Assembly (NCBI GenBank): GCA_943350395.1
Contig: CALRAD010000007.1
Coordinates: 1-61,911 of the forward strand
Origin: Candidatus Peribacteria bacterium
GTDB taxonomy: Bacteria; Patescibacteriota; Gracilibacteria; Peribacterales; Peribacteraceae
DNA: 61,911 nt
Direction of reading: 5' to 3'
The position numbers and the translations under genes are program-made. Under the pieces are notes generated by a model, which made no database searches, was not told where the DNA came from, and saw nothing but the letters and a program-made list of their open reading frames with translations. Below, piece after piece: positions 50,564 through 60,829 of this stretch (the first letter of the stretch is position 1; each line of letters starts with the position of its first letter).

Positions 50564-51202
50564 ATGGCTGATCCGCAACAAGGCACGAACCCTCCAAGGC
50601 CCGGCGATCCTGTCCCAAATGAAGGCTTGGATCCGACGCAGGTATTCGGTTCTCCTCCGCCACCTCCCGCTTCGCAGGCTTCTGGACAAGCACAAGGCCA
50701 GCAAGGTGCGGCGAATCCTCCTGTCCAGGACACCAGTCCGCCACCGCCTCCTGTTGGTACGCAGGCAACAAAGGAGATGGGGTATGACGATGAGGATATC
50801 AAGATTCTTGCTGAAGTCGGAGATTTTCGTTTTGGGTCGGTGATGACGTCACTCAATAATGATAAAGTCGTCGTACCAGCCCATTCAGAGACTAATTTCG
50901 ACGAACAAAAATTTCTGACACTTCTTCGAGGATCTATTTCACTGACGAGGGACGAAAAATGGCGCATCATTCAGGCTATCCCAAAACTCAGCCAGTTCCA
51001 GATCGACGAATTGCAAAAGATTCTCGAGGAAGAGAAATTCAAGTTCAGCCAGCTTTCTCCCAAGCACCTGAAACATCTTCAGCAACTTGAGAAGAAGCAT
51101 GCTGAAGATTGGAAAGATCTGCAGGGTCTCTATGTACAGACTGCAGCAAAGAAAGAGGAGCAGTCACAAGCAGATGATATCCGGAAGCAGCTCGGTCTCT
51201 AG
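50564..51202 (+). CDS. Hypothetical protein, Pro-rich N-terminus and helical C-terminus
   Basis: 212 aa, no family recognised. Residues 1-70 are Pro/Gln/Gly-rich and probably disordered. Residues 75-212 are helical and charged (LSQFQIDELQKILEEEKFKF; HLKHLQQLEKKHAEDWKDLQ). No membrane segment or signal peptide, so likely cytoplasmic. The leader is T/C-rich (TTTCCGCTTTTTTCT). It is convergent with the 51199 gene, overlapping by 4 nt. Confidence 0.7.
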   Translation: MADPQQGTNPPRPGDPVPNEGLDPTQVFGSPPPPPASQASGQAQGQQGAANPPVQDTSPPPPPVGTQATKEMGYDDEDIKILAEVGDFRFGSVMTSLNNDKVVVPAHSETNFDEQKFLTLLRGSISLTRDEKWRIIQAIPKLSQFQIDELQKILEEEKFKFSQLSPKHLKHLQQLEKKHAEDWKDLQGLYVQTAAKKEEQSQADDIRKQLGL

Positions 51203-52041
51203 AATAGACTCAGCCGTACACCAACGAACGCACCGATGCCAAAAAAACCGAGAATGATGCGGCTCATCCAGTGGCCGTGAATAGCTCTATGGATACTTCC
51301 AAGAAACAGGAAGAGAAAAATTGCAACAATGAAGCTGAAGATGAGCGGTGAGAGAAAGAACGCTTCTACAAAAGGAAGATTCCAAGCGAGCGCTCGCTTG
51401 TTTGTGTAGTACCCAAGAGCGACGAAAAGACCGTACCATGCAAGGAGCCAACCTGCATACACACGCAATGTGGACACGAGGGGATGGTACATCGAGGTTT
51501 CTGCAGTCAAGGGAGCTGCTGTAACCGTTGCAACAGGCTTCGACACTTCCGGAATTGAGAACCGGATGGATTTGGCAATCTTTTCGGTAGTAGCAGGCTT
51601 TGCAGTTGCGGCTTGAATGGGAGTTGGGGTGCGAGCGTTCTGCACATTGATCGCGTCCATTTCCTTTCTCTGCCAATTCTCGAGATCGTTGTCACGGTAC
51701 TGCGGCGTGACTCCGAGAGGGGACAGCATGGTGACGAAAAGCTTCTGATCGTGCTTCAGTCTCTCGAAGGCCTGGTACTTTGTCTCTGCTTGCAATGTTC
51801 CTCGTCGAATATTTTTGGCAGTGTCCGTTCCTTCGAATGCAAAAGTCGTTTTCAGCACAGGTTGCTCCGAGGTCGACTGACTCGATGCAGCGCCAACAGA
51901 TCTGGAGGCTTCGTGAATTTCAACGACATCGAGTTGCATGGTCTCAAGTGCAAGCTTTGCACTACTGAGATCTTCAGCATCAATCTGACCGCGAATCTCT
52001 TTATTGTCATCATTGATGGCTCGATACGTGAAAGAAGACAT
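51199..52041 (-). CDS. Membrane protein with GspF/PilC-N-like head
   Basis: 280 aa. Residues 1-45 (SSFTYRAINDDNKEIRGQID; AEDLSSAKLALETMQLDVVE) resemble the start of type II secretion/type IV pilus platform proteins GspF/PilC. The rest does not: a polar middle, then three hydrophobic helices (about 195-280, LLAWYGLFVALGYY; LSPLIFSFIVAIFLFLFL; ILGFFGIGAFVGV). Perhaps a borrowed head domain on a different membrane anchor. No other pilus genes are in the window. Confidence 0.65.
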   Translation of the reverse strand: MSSFTYRAINDDNKEIRGQIDAEDLSSAKLALETMQLDVVEIHEASRSVGAASSQSTSEQPVLKTTFAFEGTDTAKNIRRGTLQAETKYQAFERLKHDQKLFVTMLSPLGVTPQYRDNDLENWQRKEMDAINVQNARTPTPIQAATAKPATTEKIAKSIRFSIPEVSKPVATVTAAPLTAETSMYHPLVSTLRVYAGWLLAWYGLFVALGYYTNKRALAWNLPFVEAFFLSPLIFSFIVAIFLFLFLGSIHRAIHGHWMSRIILGFFGIGAFVGVRLSLF

Positions 52042-52055
52042 AGTTTCTGGGGTGT

Positions 52056-53153
52056 TTACTCACCGGTAGAGTACGGTGTGATAGATTGCAGCATAAAAGA
52101 AATTGCTTCCTTAAGACGCGCATCGCCAATGAGCTCGAAATGCATGCCACCGGTCCAGTCCTTAAAACCGACAACGTCTCTACCCTGCATCTTCACCTGA
52201 CCGTCCACTGCATCCATCGATTCGGAACTGCCGGACACAAGATTGAGAACGATCGGTCCGGAGCGCAGCGCGTCAATCGAAGTCATGCCAAACTCGACAT
52301 GCCAGGCATTGCTTGTCGTCGCTCCAAAGGATTTAAAATACCAATTTTTGTGCGCCGGAATGCAGAAGCCCGTGTGACTCGAACAGTACTTTTGAGTCCA
52401 AAGAGCAGGCTCTCCATATTTCTGTTTTGCCATCAGCACAATTTGTGACTCAAGCGAATTTATGGACGACTCTGAGCTCTGTTCGCTGCTTCCAAGGGAG
52501 GAAGCAGTCGAAGACGATGCAGGTGCAGCAACAGATGCTACTGACTTGGAAGAAACAGAAAGAGCTTTCGAAGACGAAGAGGATTCAAGCTGTCGTACAC
52601 AGACACCAGAACAGTCGGCTCCTCCTGCCATAGGATCACAGCTGTCCGTGGAATCATCGACGCATAGAAAGCCTTGCGAGCAGGGAAGCCCGGCAATGCC
52701 GCCGCACATCGCACGTTCCGATGGAACAGATGAAGAGAGTGACGAAAAAGACGCGCTGGCAGCGGATTCCAAAACGGTGACTTCCTCAACCCGCATGATT
52801 TCACCGTTACCTTCAACTGTCGGCTGTACTGAACCGCGCACTTCGACGCGCTTCTCGAGATAGACGTTGAGACTGAGGTTTGCATCGGTTGACTCGAGCA
52901 AGATGAATTGTCCGTCATCAAGAACAAGCTTGTGAGTTCCTTGCTGGTAGATCGAAACACCCAATTCTCCGACGGTACCGATGTAACTGACATTACGGGT
53001 TGGAGTGATAACAGTTGATCCCGTGGTTGCGAGATCGGACTCGGAACCGACCGAGGAAGAACTCTGTTCCGTTGAGGGTGAGGAGGAGTCGAAAGAACAA
53101 GAGGTTAAAACGGCTGCTGCGAGAAGAACAGTGACGGGAAAAAAGCGCTTCAT
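52056..53153 (-). CDS. Ser-rich Cys-containing lipoprotein
   Basis: 365 aa from ATG 53153. Signal and lipobox VTVLLAAAVLTSCSF. A Ser-rich stalk, a beta-rich segment (GTHKLVLDDGQFILLESTDA, LEKRVEVRGSVQPTVEGNGE, a DUF5666-like look), a Cys cluster (CGGIAGLPCSQGFLCVDDST), a second Ser linker, and a C-terminal globular domain (KYCSSHTGFCIPAHKNWYFK; DWTGGMHFELIG). Function unknown; surface lipoprotein. The leader is C-rich (CTCCCCCAACTC). Confidence 0.75.
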   Translation of the reverse strand: MKRFFPVTVLLAAAVLTSCSFDSSSPSTEQSSSSVGSESDLATTGSTVITPTRNVSYIGTVGELGVSIYQQGTHKLVLDDGQFILLESTDANLSLNVYLEKRVEVRGSVQPTVEGNGEIMRVEEVTVLESAASASFSSLSSSVPSERAMCGGIAGLPCSQGFLCVDDSTDSCDPMAGGADCSGVCVRQLESSSSSKALSVSSKSVASVAAPASSSTASSLGSSEQSSESSINSLESQIVLMAKQKYGEPALWTQKYCSSHTGFCIPAHKNWYFKSFGATTSNAWHVEFGMTSIDALRSGPIVLNLVSGSSESMDAVDGQVKMQGRDVVGFKDWTGGMHFELIGDARLKEAISFMLQSITPYSTGE

Positions 53154-53236
53154 GAGTTGGGGGAGAAAACATCCGCAGCATACAGGATGTGCTCGAATGC
53201 GCCAAACATAGTCTGTGCATCGGAGCCTGTTTTGTG

Positions 53237-53242
53237 TACAGT
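53237..53242 (+). promoter_or_regulatory. -10 of the M29 aminopeptidase gene
   Basis: TACAGT, 7 nt before ATG 53250; excludes the longer in-frame start at 53157. Confidence 0.6.
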
Positions 53243-53249
53243 GCGCCCA

Positions 53250-54449
53250 ATGTTTCAGCCCGACCAATCGATCCTCGGCAACTATGCCGATTTGCTCGTG
53301 AAATTTGCTCTGGGAGGAGGAGAGGGAGCAAAGCCCGGTCAAACTGTGCAGCTGGCAATCCCTGATGCAGCTAAACCACTTCTGCCTGAGCTGATGCGTG
53401 CGGTGTTACAGTGCGGTGCGTACCCGAAAATTTTATTCATTCCCACGGAAGTCGACAGGACTTTTTTTGACTACGCCTCAGAAGATCAGCTTCTGCACTT
53501 TCCCGAAGCCTACAAGCGCGCCGAAGCGAATCTCCTCGATCATTCCGTATCGATTATTGCAGATCCTAATCCGAGAAATCTGCAGGGCATCGATCCTGCA
53601 AAAATTTTCAAATCAATGGATTCGAAACGAAAGTATCGAGACTGGCTGAATAGAAAAGAGCAGGAAGGCAAATACTCATGGACGCTTGCACTCTACGGTA
53701 CCGAGGCAATGGCGAAGGAAGCGGGTATGAGTCTTGAGGAGTACTGGGATCAAATTATTCAAGCGTGCTATCTGGATGCAAAAGACCCGGTAGCCGAGTG
53801 GAAGAAGATTCAGACCGAGCAGGATCGCGTGAAGAAAGAACTTGATGTACTCTGTATAGAATCTGTGCACGTTGCCGGGAAGAACATCGACCTCACGGTG
53901 AAGCTCGGTGCAAATCGAAAGTGGCTCGGTGGCAGCTGCAGAAACATCCCAAGCTTCGAACTGTTTATTTCGCCGGATTGGCGAGGGACGAACGGCAAGA
54001 TTTACTTCAACCAACCACTCTATCGCTATGGAAACATTCTGCGAGACGTCACGCTTGAATTCAAAAACGGACTCGTGACAAGCGCGAAGGCCCGCGAAGG
54101 ACAAGCAGTGTTAGACAGCATGATCGTCCGAACGAACGCGAACAAAATCGGCGAGTATTCTCTGACCGACAAACGCTTTTCGCGCATCACGCGTTTCATG
54201 GCCAACACGCTCTTCGATGAAAACGTCGGCGGTGAATTCGGCAATACGCATCTTGCACTCGGTCGTGCATACAAAGACAGTTTTACGGGAGACCAAAGCC
54301 TTCCGACTGACGCGGAATGGGAAGCAATGGGCTTCAACGAATCGCCCGAGCACACGGATATCATTTCAACGGAAGATCGCATCGTCACGGCAAGTCTTCC
54401 GAATGGTAGCAAGAAAGTGATCTTCAAAGACGGAATGTTCACGGTCTAG
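53250..54449 (+). CDS. M29-family aminopeptidase (thermophilic/AmpS-type)
   Basis: 399 aa from ATG 53250. Matches M29 metallo-aminopeptidases throughout: YADLLVKFALGGGEGAKPGQ, PRNLQGIDPAKI, the metal-binding stretch LGGSCRNIPSFELFISPDWR, GTNGKIYFNQPL, and the C-terminal GGEFGNTHLALGRAYKDSFTG. Cytoplasmic removal of N-terminal residues from peptides. It stands alone; convergent with the DsbA-like gene across an AT-rich palindrome. Confidence 0.9.
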   Translation: MFQPDQSILGNYADLLVKFALGGGEGAKPGQTVQLAIPDAAKPLLPELMRAVLQCGAYPKILFIPTEVDRTFFDYASEDQLLHFPEAYKRAEANLLDHSVSIIADPNPRNLQGIDPAKIFKSMDSKRKYRDWLNRKEQEGKYSWTLALYGTEAMAKEAGMSLEEYWDQIIQACYLDAKDPVAEWKKIQTEQDRVKKELDVLCIESVHVAGKNIDLTVKLGANRKWLGGSCRNIPSFELFISPDWRGTNGKIYFNQPLYRYGNILRDVTLEFKNGLVTSAKAREGQAVLDSMIVRTNANKIGEYSLTDKRFSRITRFMANTLFDENVGGEFGNTHLALGRAYKDSFTGDQSLPTDAEWEAMGFNESPEHTDIISTEDRIVTASLPNGSKKVIFKDGMFTV

Positions 54450-54526: not shown

Positions 54527-55297
54527 TTAGTTCACGTTGTCATTCGTCATGACTTTGTCCGAGTAGGCCCAGAATGCATCGTTGCCCCCGATTTCACCTG
54601 CGCACTCGGCTGCAGTCGCGAGAGGAACGGCATTCGGATGGAAACCGAGAGGGAAGTGTCTGTAGACCCATACGATCTTTCCGTCGTATTCTTTCATCAT
54701 CTGCTTCAATGTCGGATGCACACGCTGACAGAACGGACACTGATAATCGGAGTACTCGATAAGTGCAAGCCGTGCGCTCTTCGATCCCTGATAGCGGTCA
54801 GTGTCAAAATCGACCGGAGGAACGTCCGTTGCTTGCGGCGTGTTCGGATCGGTGCTCTTTGCCGAAGGGTTCTTCAGCATTTCGTCAATGTTCTTCTTAA
54901 ATGCCTCGAACGGCTGCGCACCAGAGAGAACGCGTGCGTTGCCGGTCTTCATGTCGATCAGAATGTTGCCCGGAGTTCCGTTCACACCTGCTTTCTGGGC
55001 TGCCGCCATTTGCTCATCGAACATCGCCTTGAACTTGTCTGCGGCAATACACTCCTTGAATTTGCCTTCGTCGAGTCCGACTTCTTTCGCAATGGCAAGA
55101 ATCGTCTCATTGATGTTCGTCTGGGGAGCCTGAGGAGCTTCCGGAGCATTCGGCACCGCACCTCCAGAGGGAATTGCACCGATGCCGAACGGACTCACGC
55201 CGCTCGCACCGACGAGAACCACGCCTACGATGACACCGCCGAGGAACATGGAAATGCCGAACCATACATTTTGCTGTTGGATTTCTTTCATTGTCAT
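54527..55297 (-). CDS. Membrane-anchored DsbA-like protein with swapped halves (circular permutation)
   Basis: 256 aa. Membrane helix (about 12-32), Pro-rich spacer, then in order: a segment that in ordinary DsbA-family proteins is C-terminal (residues 61-142: LAIAKEVGLDEGKFKECI, GVNGTPG with the cis-Pro at 109, GAQPFEAFKKNIDEML), a 20-residue linker, and the segment that is normally N-terminal (165-256: LALIEYSDYQCPFC with CPFC at 187-190, VYRHFPLGFHP, AAECAGEIGG, DAFWAYSDKVM). All thioredoxin-fold parts are present once, so the protein may be active. Likely oxidises or isomerises disulfides of exported Cys-rich proteins. Start ATG 55297 or 55291. Confidence 0.88.
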   Translation of the reverse strand: MTMKEIQQQNVWFGISMFLGGVIVGVVLVGASGVSPFGIGAIPSGGAVPNAPEAPQAPQTNINETILAIAKEVGLDEGKFKECIAADKFKAMFDEQMAAAQKAGVNGTPGNILIDMKTGNARVLSGAQPFEAFKKNIDEMLKNPSAKSTDPNTPQATDVPPVDFDTDRYQGSKSARLALIEYSDYQCPFCQRVHPTLKQMMKEYDGKIVWVYRHFPLGFHPNAVPLATAAECAGEIGGNDAFWAYSDKVMTNDNVN

Positions 55298-55446: not shown

Positions 55447-56637
55447 ATGCCTGAATCGATTCTCATCGTCGGCGGAGGCTTCGGAGGAGTGCAAGCAGCA
55501 CTGTCACTCGCTCGAAAAAAAATACCTGATACGCAGATACGATTCATCGATCCAAAAACGTACTTCGAGTATCACGCGGCACTGTATCGATTTGCAACCG
55601 GATCATCACCGATGGAAGCATGCATTCCGTACAAGGATATTTTTGAGAACAATGGCGTCGAAATCTTGCAGGATACGGCATGCACAATTGATCTGTCTAA
55701 AAAAATTGTCACGGGTGCATCGGGGTCTCACTATCGTTTCGATACTCTCATTCTGGCACTCGGCAGCGTCGGTGCAACATTCGGCATCGAAGGAGTTTCG
55801 AAGTACTCGTATGGCATGACATCCGCAACCGAAGCGCTGCGTCTCAAGATGCACATCTTGGAATCCTTCCAAACGGCAACGATAGCCGACGTTGAAAACC
55901 GAAAAACTCTCATGCATATCGTTGTCGTGGGCGGAGGTCCGACAGGCGTTGAACTGGCAGGGGAATTGGCTTTCTATGCACGAACACTTGCTCTTGAACA
56001 CGGACTTGATCCTACTCTCGTCTGCATTGATCTAGTCGAATCAGCAGACAAAATTCTTGGAAATTTGCCGGAACGAGCATCGAGGATTGCAGAAGAAAGA
56101 CTCAGAACTCTCGGTGTGAGCGTTCTTTTGAACCAGCCTCTCACAAGAGAAGAAATAGGAAAGATCCAACTGAAGGATAAAGAAATTTTGACTGCTACGG
56201 TCGTATGGACTGCTGGTGTGTGTGCACATCCTCTCATACAAAAAACTGTCGGCATCACTGTTGACAGAAAAGGTCGGGCAACTATAGATGCATGCCTGCA
56301 GGCAAACGGATACGAAAATATATTCGTCATCGGCGACGGTGCGGCTACACCCTATAGCGGGATGGCGCAAACAGCACTCTACGACGGAGACTTTGTCGCA
56401 AACGTCATCGAATGCAAAACAAAGAATCATGCCTTGCCGATCTACCTCCCGTCAGTTCCGCTCACAGCAATTCCTATCGGCGGAGAGTGGGCACTGTACG
56501 TGAAACAGGGTCGAATCGTCACGGGATACAGGGGATGGATGCTGCGCAGATTCGCCGATCTTCAGCTCTTCATGAAACTACTGCCCTTCTCGAAAGCACT
56601 GAGAGCATTCCGATGCGGGTACAAATTGGAAGGGTAG
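55447..56637 (+). CDS. Type II NADH dehydrogenase (FAD-dependent)
   Basis: 396 aa. Two Rossmann folds: FAD site ILIVGGGFGGVQAALSLA at the N-terminus and NAD(P)H site VVVGGGPTGVELAGELA at about 160; FVIGDGAATPYSGMAQTA near the C-terminus, GYRGWMLRRFADL at the membrane-binding end. Non-proton-pumping NADH:quinone oxidoreductase is the usual activity. CPR bacteria often lack a full respiratory chain, so the acceptor here is uncertain. It is followed 2 nt later by the TMTC-like gene. Confidence 0.88.
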   Translation: MPESILIVGGGFGGVQAALSLARKKIPDTQIRFIDPKTYFEYHAALYRFATGSSPMEACIPYKDIFENNGVEILQDTACTIDLSKKIVTGASGSHYRFDTLILALGSVGATFGIEGVSKYSYGMTSATEALRLKMHILESFQTATIADVENRKTLMHIVVVGGGPTGVELAGELAFYARTLALEHGLDPTLVCIDLVESADKILGNLPERASRIAEERLRTLGVSVLLNQPLTREEIGKIQLKDKEILTATVVWTAGVCAHPLIQKTVGITVDRKGRATIDACLQANGYENIFVIGDGAATPYSGMAQTALYDGDFVANVIECKTKNHALPIYLPSVPLTAIPIGGEWALYVKQGRIVTGYRGWMLRRFADLQLFMKLLPFSKALRAFRCGYKLEG

Positions 56638-56639
56638 CA

Positions 56640-58553
56640 ATGTACGATAGGGTGGTGCTGCCTGTTCTCCCGCCAAAATCACGAGTCGCGCTGATTGTAC
56701 TGTTGGTTCTTGCAGTTGTTTTCACTGCGTACGGATCTTCTCTGTCGAGTGAGTTCGTGACGCTCGATGACAATGGACTGATCACCGACAATCCGATCGT
56801 CGCTTCGATGAATGCGAAAACGATCAAAGCTGCATTCACGTCGTACGATCCGGAGCTCTATATTCCTCTTACGTTTGTGTCATACCAAATCAATCACGCA
56901 CTATCGGGTCTGAATCCGGCAGCTTTTCACCTGACTGATTTGCTGTTGCACACGGCGAATGTATTGCTTGTTATTTGGCTTCTCTTCGTGCTCATCGGCA
57001 ACGGTTGGCTTGCTCTGGGTCTCGGACTTATTTTTGCGATTCACCCGCTCGGGAGCGAAGCGGTACTCTGGGCATCGGCTCGGAAAGACGTTCTGTCGAC
57101 AATATTCTTCTACTCATCGTTTCTGTGCTATCTGTACGGGAAAAGCCGAGAGAGCCGGAAACTCTATTGGATCTCCGTACTTCTCTTCGTCTTCGGTTTG
57201 CTTTCAAAAATAATGGTGGTGACGTTGCCCATCGTTCTTCTGCTTCTCGATGATGCTCGAGGCAGACACATCAATAAAAAACTCATGATCGAGAAATTCC
57301 CATACCTCTTTTTTGCAGTCATCTTTGGCATCGTCGGCATCTTCGGAAAGACGGAGAATCTTGTGTCTTCCACGTTCGTGCAGAAAATACTGATGGCGGC
57401 GAAGAGCACCTCGTTCTACTTGCAAAAGTTTCTCTGGCCGACTGAACTTTCTGTAACGTACCCGTACACGGATCCGATCACGATTCTGTCGCTGGATTTT
57501 GCGATTCCGCTCGCATTCGTCATGTTGTTTCTGGGAGCAGCAGTCTTCCTCAGGAACAGAAACCGCACAGCGTTCTTCGGCATGCTTTTCTTCCTTATCA
57601 CGCTGCTGCCAACATTCCTCAATTTTGCGAAAGGAGGGGACATATACTTCGCATCGGATCGGTACGCATACATTCCGATGGTCGGGCTTCTCGTACTGAT
57701 CGGTTCCTATGCGAATCGGTGGTTTCACGATGCGAACACCATTCGATCCGTGTCCTCGCGTCGAGCAGTGCTCACCTCCGGAATTGTCTGCATCCTGCTT
57801 GTGTTCTGCATTCTGGCGCAGAAACAGTCTTCCGTGTGGCGAAACAGTACTGCGCTGTACGAAAACGTTCTCGCGTACTATCCGGAGTCGAGAGCGGCAC
57901 ACAACAATCTCGGTATGGAGCAGCTCGCTTCAGGAGAAATCGATGCTGCTATTGCGTCATTTCGACGCGCGCTTGCGATCAATCCTGATCCGAAGACAAG
58001 AGTGAATCTCGCTGCAGCATTCGTGCGAAAGAAAAAATTTTCCGAAGCAGAAACAATCTATAAGGCAGTCATGGTTTCAAATCCAGAAATTGCAGACAGC
58101 GCATACGGACTGGGGCAAATTGCGCAGAAGCAGGGAAAACTTGCGGAAGCCGCCGGCTGGTACAGAAGAGCAATCGATACCAATCCGCAGTACCAGAATG
58201 CGTATAATAATCTTGGTGGAGTCTATCTGCAGCTTAAGGACTGGAACAATGCCGTAGTTATTTTACGCAAGGCAATCGAACTGAATTCCGATTTCGTAGA
58301 ATCTTCCTACAATCTCGCAATTGCTCTCAAGATGCTTGGACAGTATGGCGAAAGTGAAATATTGCTTCGAAAAGTTATCGCAGCGAATCCGGATGATGCA
58401 GATTCTCTCTCGATTCTTGCTGTTCTTCTGTACGAGAGGAAAGCGATAGATGAAGCTGCTCAAACGCTCAAGAAGGCTTTACAGATCGATCAGAGCAATC
58501 CAACGGCCCTCGAACTTCTGTACCGAATGAAGGCGGACGGCATCGTCCGCTAG
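56640..58553 (+). CDS. TMTC-like multi-pass mannosyltransferase with TPR tail, paralog 1
   Basis: 637 aa from ATG 56640. About 11 membrane helices with SSEFVTLDDNGLITDNP (acidic pair in the first loop), DPELYIPLTFVSYQINHALS, WASARKDVLSTIFFYSS and ASDRYAYIPMVGLL, then TPR repeats from about residue 390 (AHNNLGMEQLASGEIDAAIA; NAYNNLGGVYLQLKDWNNAV). The layout of a GT-C glycosyltransferase with TPRs matches TMTC-type protein O-mannosyltransferases. A purine-rich site (GGAAGGG) precedes this start, unlike most genes here. Confidence 0.82.
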   Translation: MYDRVVLPVLPPKSRVALIVLLVLAVVFTAYGSSLSSEFVTLDDNGLITDNPIVASMNAKTIKAAFTSYDPELYIPLTFVSYQINHALSGLNPAAFHLTDLLLHTANVLLVIWLLFVLIGNGWLALGLGLIFAIHPLGSEAVLWASARKDVLSTIFFYSSFLCYLYGKSRESRKLYWISVLLFVFGLLSKIMVVTLPIVLLLLDDARGRHINKKLMIEKFPYLFFAVIFGIVGIFGKTENLVSSTFVQKILMAAKSTSFYLQKFLWPTELSVTYPYTDPITILSLDFAIPLAFVMLFLGAAVFLRNRNRTAFFGMLFFLITLLPTFLNFAKGGDIYFASDRYAYIPMVGLLVLIGSYANRWFHDANTIRSVSSRRAVLTSGIVCILLVFCILAQKQSSVWRNSTALYENVLAYYPESRAAHNNLGMEQLASGEIDAAIASFRRALAINPDPKTRVNLAAAFVRKKKFSEAETIYKAVMVSNPEIADSAYGLGQIAQKQGKLAEAAGWYRRAIDTNPQYQNAYNNLGGVYLQLKDWNNAVVILRKAIELNSDFVESSYNLAIALKMLGQYGESEILLRKVIAANPDDADSLSILAVLLYERKAIDEAAQTLKKALQIDQSNPTALELLYRMKADGIVR

Positions 58554-58562: not shown

Positions 58563-59216
58563 GTGAGATTCCTGAAAAGAATATTGCTGGCGATCGTCAT
58601 AACGATTCTTCTGTTCATCGCGATCGACCGTGTGATTGTTCGTTCGACGCAGTCACGCATTCATTCCGACATCTCCTCGCTTCCGGGCGCCGAAGTCATC
58701 CTTGTTCCGGGTGCCAGAGTGTATGCAGGCGAAGTCTCCGGGATACTCGCACAGAGACTCGATGCGGCAATTGTTGTGTTGGAGGCGCGGAAAGCGAAAA
58801 GAATACTGGTATCGGGCGATTACAGCAGTCGCTACTACGACGAAGCGACTGCAATGAAAAAGTATCTTTTGCGCAGCGGTGTTGGCACCGGTGAGATTAT
58901 GCTCGATCACGCCGGTTTTTCGACCTACGACAGCCTGTATCGGGCGAAGAATATTTTCAATCTGCGGACTGTCATCATCGTCAGCCAGGATTTTCACTTG
59001 CCAAGAGCATTGTTCATCGCTCGCGGCATTGGACTGGATGCAATCGGCTTTGCCGCATCCGGCGCTCCTCTCAGTCCAGAACAATTATTCCGAAGCGAGT
59101 GGCGAGAGCCGCTGGCAAGAATGAAGGCAGTGCTCGATGTACTTCGCCATGCACCGCCTGCGTTTACGGGCTCGGGACTGCCATTCGATGCACGCGGCAC
59201 GCTTCTCCGATGGTGA
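58563..59216 (+). CDS. SanA/YdcF-type DUF218 protein
   Basis: 217 aa from GTG 58563, the only start before the membrane helix (about 4-23, LLAIVITILLFIAID). DUF218 domain: EVILVPGARVYAGEVSGILA, KRILVSGDYSSRYYDEATAM, DHAGFSTYDSLYRAKNI, VIIVSQDFHLPRALFIA. SanA-type proteins affect envelope integrity in enterobacteria; enzymatic role unclear. Its position between two mannosyltransferase paralogs suggests surface glycan work. Confidence 0.88.
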   Translation: MRFLKRILLAIVITILLFIAIDRVIVRSTQSRIHSDISSLPGAEVILVPGARVYAGEVSGILAQRLDAAIVVLEARKAKRILVSGDYSSRYYDEATAMKKYLLRSGVGTGEIMLDHAGFSTYDSLYRAKNIFNLRTVIIVSQDFHLPRALFIARGIGLDAIGFAASGAPLSPEQLFRSEWREPLARMKAVLDVLRHAPPAFTGSGLPFDARGTLLRW

Positions 59217-59260: not shown

Positions 59261-60829
59261 ATGCAAAAATTCTGGCTGATCCCCGTCGGCTTCGCGCTCG
59301 TGATGTCGATCGTCTACGGTCAGACGATCCGAAACGATTTTATCAATCTCGATGATAAACCGTTGATTGTTGAAAATAAGACTGTCAGAGGCTTGAGTGC
59401 AGAGAATGTTAGGAAGGCATTCACGAGCTTCGATCCGGAGCTCTATATCCCTCTCACACTTCTCAGTTATCAGGCTGAGTATGAAATCGCAGGCTTGAGT
59501 CCTGCTCTCATTCACTTCGATAACCTCGTACTGCATACCGCAAACGCGCTTCTGGTAACTGTGATTATTTTCCTACTTCTGCAAAATCTGTGGATCGCTG
59601 TCTTCTGCGGACTTCTCTTTGCTGTGCATCCACAAAATGCAGAAGCTGTTCTCTGGGCCTCGGCTCGCAAAGATTTGTTGTCGGCATTCTTCTGTTTTGC
59701 TTCGATTGCGACATATCTGCTTGCGACGAGGCAGGGGAATGCCGACAACCGATGGAAAACGTTGTCGATCACACTTTTCGCACTCGGACTGCTCTCCAAG
59801 GTCAGCATCGTGCTGCTCCCCATTGCACTGCTTCTTCTCGATTGGCAACGACCGAGACGGCTGACAAAGAAAAACATCGTCGACAAAATTCCGTACGCCG
59901 TTCTCTCGCTTCTGTTCACCGTCATCGCCATTGTCGGCAAATTCGGAGTCATCGCTCACACGACGACCATGCAAAAACTGCTGATGGCTCCGAAGACGAT
60001 CATGTTTACGCTTGCGCACTTTGTTTTTCCGCATCGCTTATCGCTGTTGTATCCGTTCGGACGAGAGATCAGCATCACTGACCCCGGCATTTTTATGCCG
60101 ATGGCATTGCTGATGTTGCTTTGTGGACCCATCGTCATCAATCGTCGCGGCACGAAGATGATCACGACGGGCATCGGCATCTTCCTCGTCATGCTCGTCC
60201 CATCGTTGCCGAATATCGAGCGCGGCATCGATCTCTACGTCGCGTCGGATAGGTATGCATACGTTCCGTCGATAGGTCTTCTTCTCCTCGCGGCTTCTCT
60301 ACTGCGCTTGCTCCGAGAAAAGATCACGTCGAAGCAGAAGACAGCGCTGACACTCGGAGCGCTCGTGCTCATCACAACACTCGGATTTCTCACGCATCGT
60401 CGAAGTCTGACATGGAAAAACAGTCAAACGGTCTACGCGTCCGTTCTGGAGTTGTATCCCGATTCGTATGTCGCCCACAGCAATCTGGGCCTCGATGCTT
60501 TGGATCGAAACGAGTTCGAAACTGCAGCACGCGAGTTCCGGCTTGCAGGAGAGATTCATCCAACGGACGATATGAAGATCAACGAAAGCATCGCGCTCAA
60601 TAATCTTGGAACACTGCTCATGAGCAAAGATAAGTGCAAAGAAGCAATCAGTATGTTCGTGAGAGCCGCAACACTCAATCCGACTGCCAGTGATATCAAG
60701 TTCAATCTCGGAGTCTGCTACGAGCAAACGGGAGAGAGGGGAATGGCACTGGAGGCATTCGAGGAAGCAGTGAGGCTGAATCCGGAAGATTCAGAGGCAA
60801 GTAAAAAGCTGCGTCTACTTAAAAATTAG
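59261..60829 (+). CDS. TMTC-like multi-pass mannosyltransferase with TPR tail, paralog 2
   Basis: 522 aa. Paralog of the 56640 gene with the same landmarks: NDFINLDDKPLIVENKT, DPELYIPLTLLSYQAEYEIA, WASARKDLLSAFFCFAS, ASDRYAYVPSIGLLLLA. Its TPR tail is shorter (about three repeats, 405-520: VAHSNLGLDALDRNEFETAA; NLGVCYEQTGERGMALEAFE). Probably arose by duplication around the SanA-type gene; the two may differ in acceptor choice through their TPRs. Confidence 0.82.
   Translation: MQKFWLIPVGFALVMSIVYGQTIRNDFINLDDKPLIVENKTVRGLSAENVRKAFTSFDPELYIPLTLLSYQAEYEIAGLSPALIHFDNLVLHTANALLVTVIIFLLLQNLWIAVFCGLLFAVHPQNAEAVLWASARKDLLSAFFCFASIATYLLATRQGNADNRWKTLSITLFALGLLSKVSIVLLPIALLLLDWQRPRRLTKKNIVDKIPYAVLSLLFTVIAIVGKFGVIAHTTTMQKLLMAPKTIMFTLAHFVFPHRLSLLYPFGREISITDPGIFMPMALLMLLCGPIVINRRGTKMITTGIGIFLVMLVPSLPNIERGIDLYVASDRYAYVPSIGLLLLAASLLRLLREKITSKQKTALTLGALVLITTLGFLTHRRSLTWKNSQTVYASVLELYPDSYVAHSNLGLDALDRNEFETAAREFRLAGEIHPTDDMKINESIALNNLGTLLMSKDKCKEAISMFVRAATLNPTASDIKFNLGVCYEQTGERGMALEAFEEAVRLNPEDSEASKKLRLLKN

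Follow-up and report, generated by a model that had tools for sequence, protein, structure and literature searches.

The window, by which we mean the whole 61,911-nucleotide stretch of DNA analysed here, carries on its reverse strand an open reading frame for a membrane-anchored DsbA-like protein, with an ATG at 55297 and a stop codon at 54527–54529. The gene lies upstream of a cluster that encodes a lipoprotein, a membrane protein and a proline-rich protein. Its parts and neighbors are as follows.

54527–55297, − strand: permuted DsbA gene (open reading frame and translation; 256 aa, coordinates with stop)
55202–55267, − strand: N-terminal transmembrane helix (signal anchor), residues 11–32, with the conserved motif WFG.SM.L
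54872–55117, − strand: former C-terminal DsbA half, now first, residues 61–142 (profile match, alignment, model)
55049–55051, − strand: Cys83, proposed second-disulfide partner of Cys232 (co-occurrence)
54971–54979, − strand: GTP of the cis-Pro loop, residues 107–109 (homologue alignment)
54806–54871, − strand: new linker from old C-terminus to old N-terminus, residues 143–164, 22 residues (alignment; pLDDT 94–98)
54530–54805, − strand: former N-terminal DsbA half, now last, residues 165–256 (profile match, alignment, model)
54728–54739, − strand: active-site CPFC, residues 187–190 (translation, alignment)
54602–54604, − strand: Cys232, proposed second-disulfide partner of Cys83 (co-occurrence)
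53157–54449, + strand: M29 peptidase, between the DsbA and lipoprotein genes (synteny)
52056–53342, − strand: Cys-containing lipoprotein with lipobox LTSC, a neighbor common to permuted and ordinary DsbA loci
51199–52041, − strand: conserved membrane protein of the same cluster (synteny)
50564–51202, + strand: conserved proline-rich protein of the same cluster (synteny)

Taken at their longest, the M29 peptidase and lipoprotein frames overlap by their 5′ ends (53157–53342), and the starts are probably internal; for the lipoprotein the true start is probably the internal methionine of MKRFF. Divergent from the DsbA gene is a member of the pyridine nucleotide-disulphide oxidoreductase family (55447–56637, NDH-2-like), found at this position only in the genus of the window (L062, L063). 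Further out, two paralogous proteins with multiple TM segments and with TPR repeats at the C-terminus (56412–58553 and 59261–60829) flank a DUF218 protein (58563–59216).

Order of the DsbA halves

In the DsbA family (PF01323) the half that carries CXXC canonically precedes the half that carries the cis-Pro loop. Here the order is reversed, and the protein is therefore a permuted variant of the family, not an ordinary member. The C-terminal half of the Pfam DSBA profile (positions 118–190) corresponds to residues 61–137 and the N-terminal half of the Thioredoxin_4 profile (positions 3–86) to residues 165–249, an order swapped with respect to the DSBA match. Searches of PDB chains with phmmer also returned swapped stretches – in 3gyk, for example, residues 171–244 align to chain positions 18–90 and residues 62–115 to positions 98–152; a syntenic ordinary homologue aligns to 4n30 in a single continuous stretch. 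The first-pass annotation had placed the two halves at residues 61–142 and 165–256 in swapped order, which these matches confirm. It had also claimed that every element occurs once, as is the case for CPFC, HFPL, GLD, GTP and GAQPF.

The first half holds the GLD helix, F..C, the GTP cis-Pro loop and SGAQPF; the second holds the CPFC helix, HFPL and ECAG..GGNDAFW. The linker that joins them includes VPPVD, the segment ahead of the first strand in ordinary homologues. With its elements present once, its old termini joined and its new termini at one loop, the protein has the architecture of a circular permutant. Preceding all of this is a Pro/Ala-rich spacer, which separates residue 61 from the transmembrane helix. 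That helix (residues 11–32) has been kept, so the permutation is confined to the exported domain, a correction to the first-pass annotation.

The GTP assigned by alignment to the cis-Pro loop recurs in all 40 permuted and all 102 ordinary homologues, and CPFC or CPYC in every permuted one. The CPFC half is at most 60% identical to ordinary homologues. A match to the Rcas_1661 family (NF041057) scored 69.7 bits, under the curated cut-off of 190 bits, and the protein is not a member.

Predicted fold

AlphaFold2, given an alignment of 39 permuted proteins, predicts a compact fold with pLDDT ∼97 over residues 61–250, linker included. In the model CPFC starts a helix (188–203), and a helical subdomain (helices 62–72, 77–86, 90–102 and 223–251) is inserted in the thioredoxin fold. 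The first-pass annotation had looked to structure prediction for a domain in which CPFC and the cis-Pro loop meet: the predicted fold is intact, and both the CPFC helix and the loop lie within one high-confidence domain.

A search of 350,542 PDB chains (Foldseek and VIA-align) gave as best match 1UN2, the engineered permutant CPDSBA_Q100T99 (Z 13.4, 167 residues aligned, model residues 61–256, 11% identity over the aligned residues). Ordinary DsbA entries aligned mostly to only ∼150–256 of the model, with Z at most 7.8. Among viral structures there was no match to the model at E ≤ 0.001. The predicted fold is the same as that of the unpermuted relative. A table in PMC2395249 gives the permutation site of 1UN2 as residue 100 of 1A2J; this, together with the structural match, places the natural cut, as modelled, in the corresponding loop.

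Permutation in place and distribution of permuted genes

The position taken by the permuted gene is occupied by an ordinary DsbA gene in at least 14 relatives and by a permuted one in 12. Because most of the family has an ordinary DsbA at this site, upstream of the same cluster, the permuted gene is an in-place descendant of the ordinary gene at that locus. Syntenic position, identity and trees all show that the permuted and unpermuted forms descend from one ancestor. The circular permutation that the first-pass annotation had proposed is supported by synteny with ordinary genes, by motif order and by the predicted fold. The M29 peptidase is present at the locus in a clade of 11 permuted genomes and absent from both the twelfth (G086) and the ordinary loci; the permuted gene of G086 keeps the ancestral spacing to the lipoprotein.

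The permuted order is carried in one uninterrupted open reading frame by 12 of 74 genomes of the family, from six genera, and the other 11 proteins are 41–91% identical to that of the window. Eleven of the 12 can be traced to independent public assemblies that bear the label Peribacteria or Peregrinibacteria. Orthologs were also to be sought in other CPR genomes: over the whole phylum the permuted order is found in 40 genomes from 19 family-level groups (the window's own family and 18 others). A narrow-pattern scan of public assemblies returned no permuted copy outside Peribacteria; the profile search did find such copies. Pairwise dN/dS among permuted genes is 0.03–0.15, with dS near saturation, and the gene is under purifying selection.

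The window's own genome holds no second permuted copy and one distant ordinary DsbA-like lipoprotein. In G564 (L175/L087) a permuted DsbA gene has as its immediate neighbor, in the same orientation, an ordinary DsbA gene of divergent sequence. Among phage and plasmid records none matched the query in order over 80% of its length, and no permuted DsbA was among the matches listed for 299 sampled Pseudomonadota genomes. One apparent spanning match in Pseudomonadota (G989) is interrupted by stop codons and seems to be two neighboring ordinary genes read through as one.

Route to the permuted gene

Within the limits of their resolution, trees built from the two halves are in agreement, so that a chimera of two unlike DsbA genes is rejected. 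In the combined tree, as in that of the G half, the 11 permuted proteins stay together; by neither half is the window protein placed with an ordinary gene.

Duplication models of circular permutation need a tandem in-frame chain as intermediate. Such chains, with two or three DsbA domains (CGCG, CGCGCG), occur in four genomes of one related family: L201 1142–3496(+), L203 1302–2900(+), L204 970–2838(+) and L205 796–2415(−). Their frames need UGA to be read as Gly (family code f10). A fifth genome of the same family (G134) is permuted (L202). The tandem chains are parallels in another lineage, not ancestors of the permuted gene. VPPVD is kept in the linker, as expected if it is the start of a second copy. 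Within 1 kb of the permuted genes there are no remnants of lost halves, the one DsbA sequence in that range being the separate ordinary gene of G564. Most likely the exported domain was duplicated in tandem and in frame, and the outer halves were then lost. This is the route put forward in the first-pass annotation; the tandem chains of the related family speak for it, and the lack of remnants beside the permuted genes is a point on the other side.

Number of permutation events

A tree built on the halves in common order unites 11 of the family's permuted proteins in one clade (98/91) and places the twelfth, that of G086, with the ordinary protein of G023 (98/93). The three flanking genes also group G086 with G023 (100/100), and they reject a single permuted clade (AU test, p = 7e-5). 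A phylum-wide tree of 151 rows needs 10 changes of order, at least four of them forced by well-supported branches. In L189, L198 and L199, moreover, the cut lies one helix later; for the L198 model 1UN2 is again the best match (Z 11.8), with the C-terminus continuing one helix further.

A single permutation followed by horizontal transfer or later reversions would be compatible with the DsbA sequences taken by themselves: AU tests of one permuted clade gave p = 0.107 in the family and p = 0.067 over the whole set, neither rejected at 0.05, and nearly all permuted copies share the cut loop. We regard this account as improbable given the placement of G086 by both its DsbA and its flanking genes, the rejection of one clade by those genes, the number of changes in the global tree and the three copies with a shifted cut. 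Several origins are strongly suggested, both by the rejection of a single origin in the flanking-gene trees and by the group with the later cut: at least two events within the family and probably at least one elsewhere, hence probably at least three in all. The first-pass annotation had expected one event, an expectation from which both the flanking-gene test and the shifted cut sites lead away. Recurrence within Patescibacteria – the same-locus gene permuted independently at least twice in the family, and at least once more elsewhere with a shifted cut – is thus the likely reading. It was possibly favored by a second disulfide across the cut, or by the transfer of the membrane tether to the helical subdomain, away from the catalytic one.

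Second cysteine pair and probable redox function

Cys83 and Cys232 occur as a pair: of 142 homologues, permuted and ordinary, 138 have both and the other four have neither, while all nine tandem units have both. This co-occurrence suggests a Cys83–Cys232 disulfide which, with a cysteine to either side of the cut, would hold the new termini close to each other. A 951-aa frame in another genome (L210, 1056–3908(+), G066:C23) has a DsbA-like domain without the second pair.

In the DsbA family disulfide exchange is catalysed by CXXC and the Thr-cisPro loop; CPFC and that loop would do the same here, and the permuted protein probably has thiol-disulfide oxidoreductase activity. The explanation that best accounts for the data as a whole, and that we hold to be very probable, is a membrane-anchored, outward-facing DsbA-type oxidoreductase whose exported domain was circularly permuted in place. 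The transmembrane helix would anchor the domain outside the membrane. The cut would fall within the inserted helical subdomain, in the loop that follows its first helix, with the old ends joined by a short ordered linker, and the chain would fold as ordinary DsbA does, with CPFC next to the Thr-cisPro loop. Most likely it oxidises cysteine pairs of exported proteins, perhaps those of the adjacent lipoprotein (52056–53342), which has several cysteines after its lipobox and is a reasonable candidate substrate. The Cys83/Cys232 pair may staple the new termini, and so make the loop tolerant of cutting. The history we envisage runs from an ordinary DsbA gene at the locus through tandem duplication and loss of the outer halves to the permuted gene, probably more than once in the phylum.

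The direction in which such an enzyme works is a matter on which its genome offers some evidence. A Pfam profile search for DsbB and VKOR found no match in the window's own genome, which is 97.7% complete and encodes two DsbA-family proteins; the same genome has one DsbD_TM protein, a 633-aa frame with its DsbD_TM region on C2 (L211). A reductive role is accordingly possible, the protein acting not as an oxidase but as a reductase or isomerase supplied by the DsbD-like protein, although we think this unlikely: the domain is anchored and of the CPFC DsbA type, and a VKOR above the cut-off is present in only 8 of the 74 family genomes searched, nearly all of which have DsbA homologues. With VKOR rare across the whole family, the lack of a known partner is a general feature of it, not one linked to the permutation. 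Permutants can undergo domain swap, and the two halves might be imagined to form a domain-swapped or obligate dimer in place of a single permuted domain; this we rate as very unlikely, for the single chain is predicted with pLDDT ∼97 and an ordered linker, and the model matches 1UN2 end to end. An assembly artefact or a pseudogene, scrambled from two adjacent DsbA genes, has a negligible probability. The first-pass annotation had named assembly error as a possible undoing of its proposal, but many independent assemblies agree on the permuted order, which recurs in 12 genomes and six genera of the family and 40 genomes of the phylum, and the low dN/dS speaks against decay. Assembly error is excluded for practical purposes. 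We conclude that the window protein is a true circular permutant of DsbA, natural and to all appearances functional. Such permutation is more widespread than the first-pass annotation supposed, and it probably arose more often.

Comparison with known systems

A proposed case of circular permutation through duplication and deletion relates VKOR to DsbB (PMC4555120). These are membrane four-helix bundles, the proposal is of a single ancient event, and they are partner proteins rather than proteins of the DsbA fold. Nearer to the window protein is the TRXL1 domain of UGGT (Thioredoxin_12, PF18400), the only natural DsbA-like domain with a rearranged order of elements that we found described, although of different topology. 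In TRXL1 the helical subdomain has moved ahead of an intact thioredoxin motif (PMC7687155, PMC8024514). The window protein departs from this pattern of four helices followed by an intact motif: in the model its thioredoxin motif is split, with beta-beta-alpha before beta-alpha-beta. The match between the two is weak in sequence (E 5e-4) and reaches a Z of about 7 in structure.

Ordinary anchored DsbA proteins of Peribacteria and other Patescibacteria (PF01323; Thioredoxin_4, PF13462) share the motifs, the TM anchor and the locus beside the same lipoprotein cluster; their halves are in canonical order, whereas those of the window protein are swapped. Each half scores as DsbA, and for this reason permuted enzymes hide in annotation. 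Relatives with the ordinary form at the same locus provide before-and-after pairs and, together with the tandem chains, allow a direct test of the duplication/deletion route, which is usually inferred over vast distances.

The full-text literature searched, with few subscription papers in it, yielded only engineered permutants of DsbA and no natural one. Random permutation of E. coli DsbA was the work of Hennecke, Sebbel and Glockshuber (1999), as cited in PMC12667903 and PMC3281007. With 1UN2, derived from E. coli DsbA, the window protein shares the overall fold, the permuted order and a cut in the corresponding loop; 1UN2 was made in the laboratory, whereas the window protein is natural, membrane-anchored and furnished with its own linker and a second cysteine pair. 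DsbA is a classic protein of laboratory circular permutation, and nature has done likewise at a matching loop, apparently repeatedly. If that recurrence is true, it amounts to a natural replicate experiment on protein topology.
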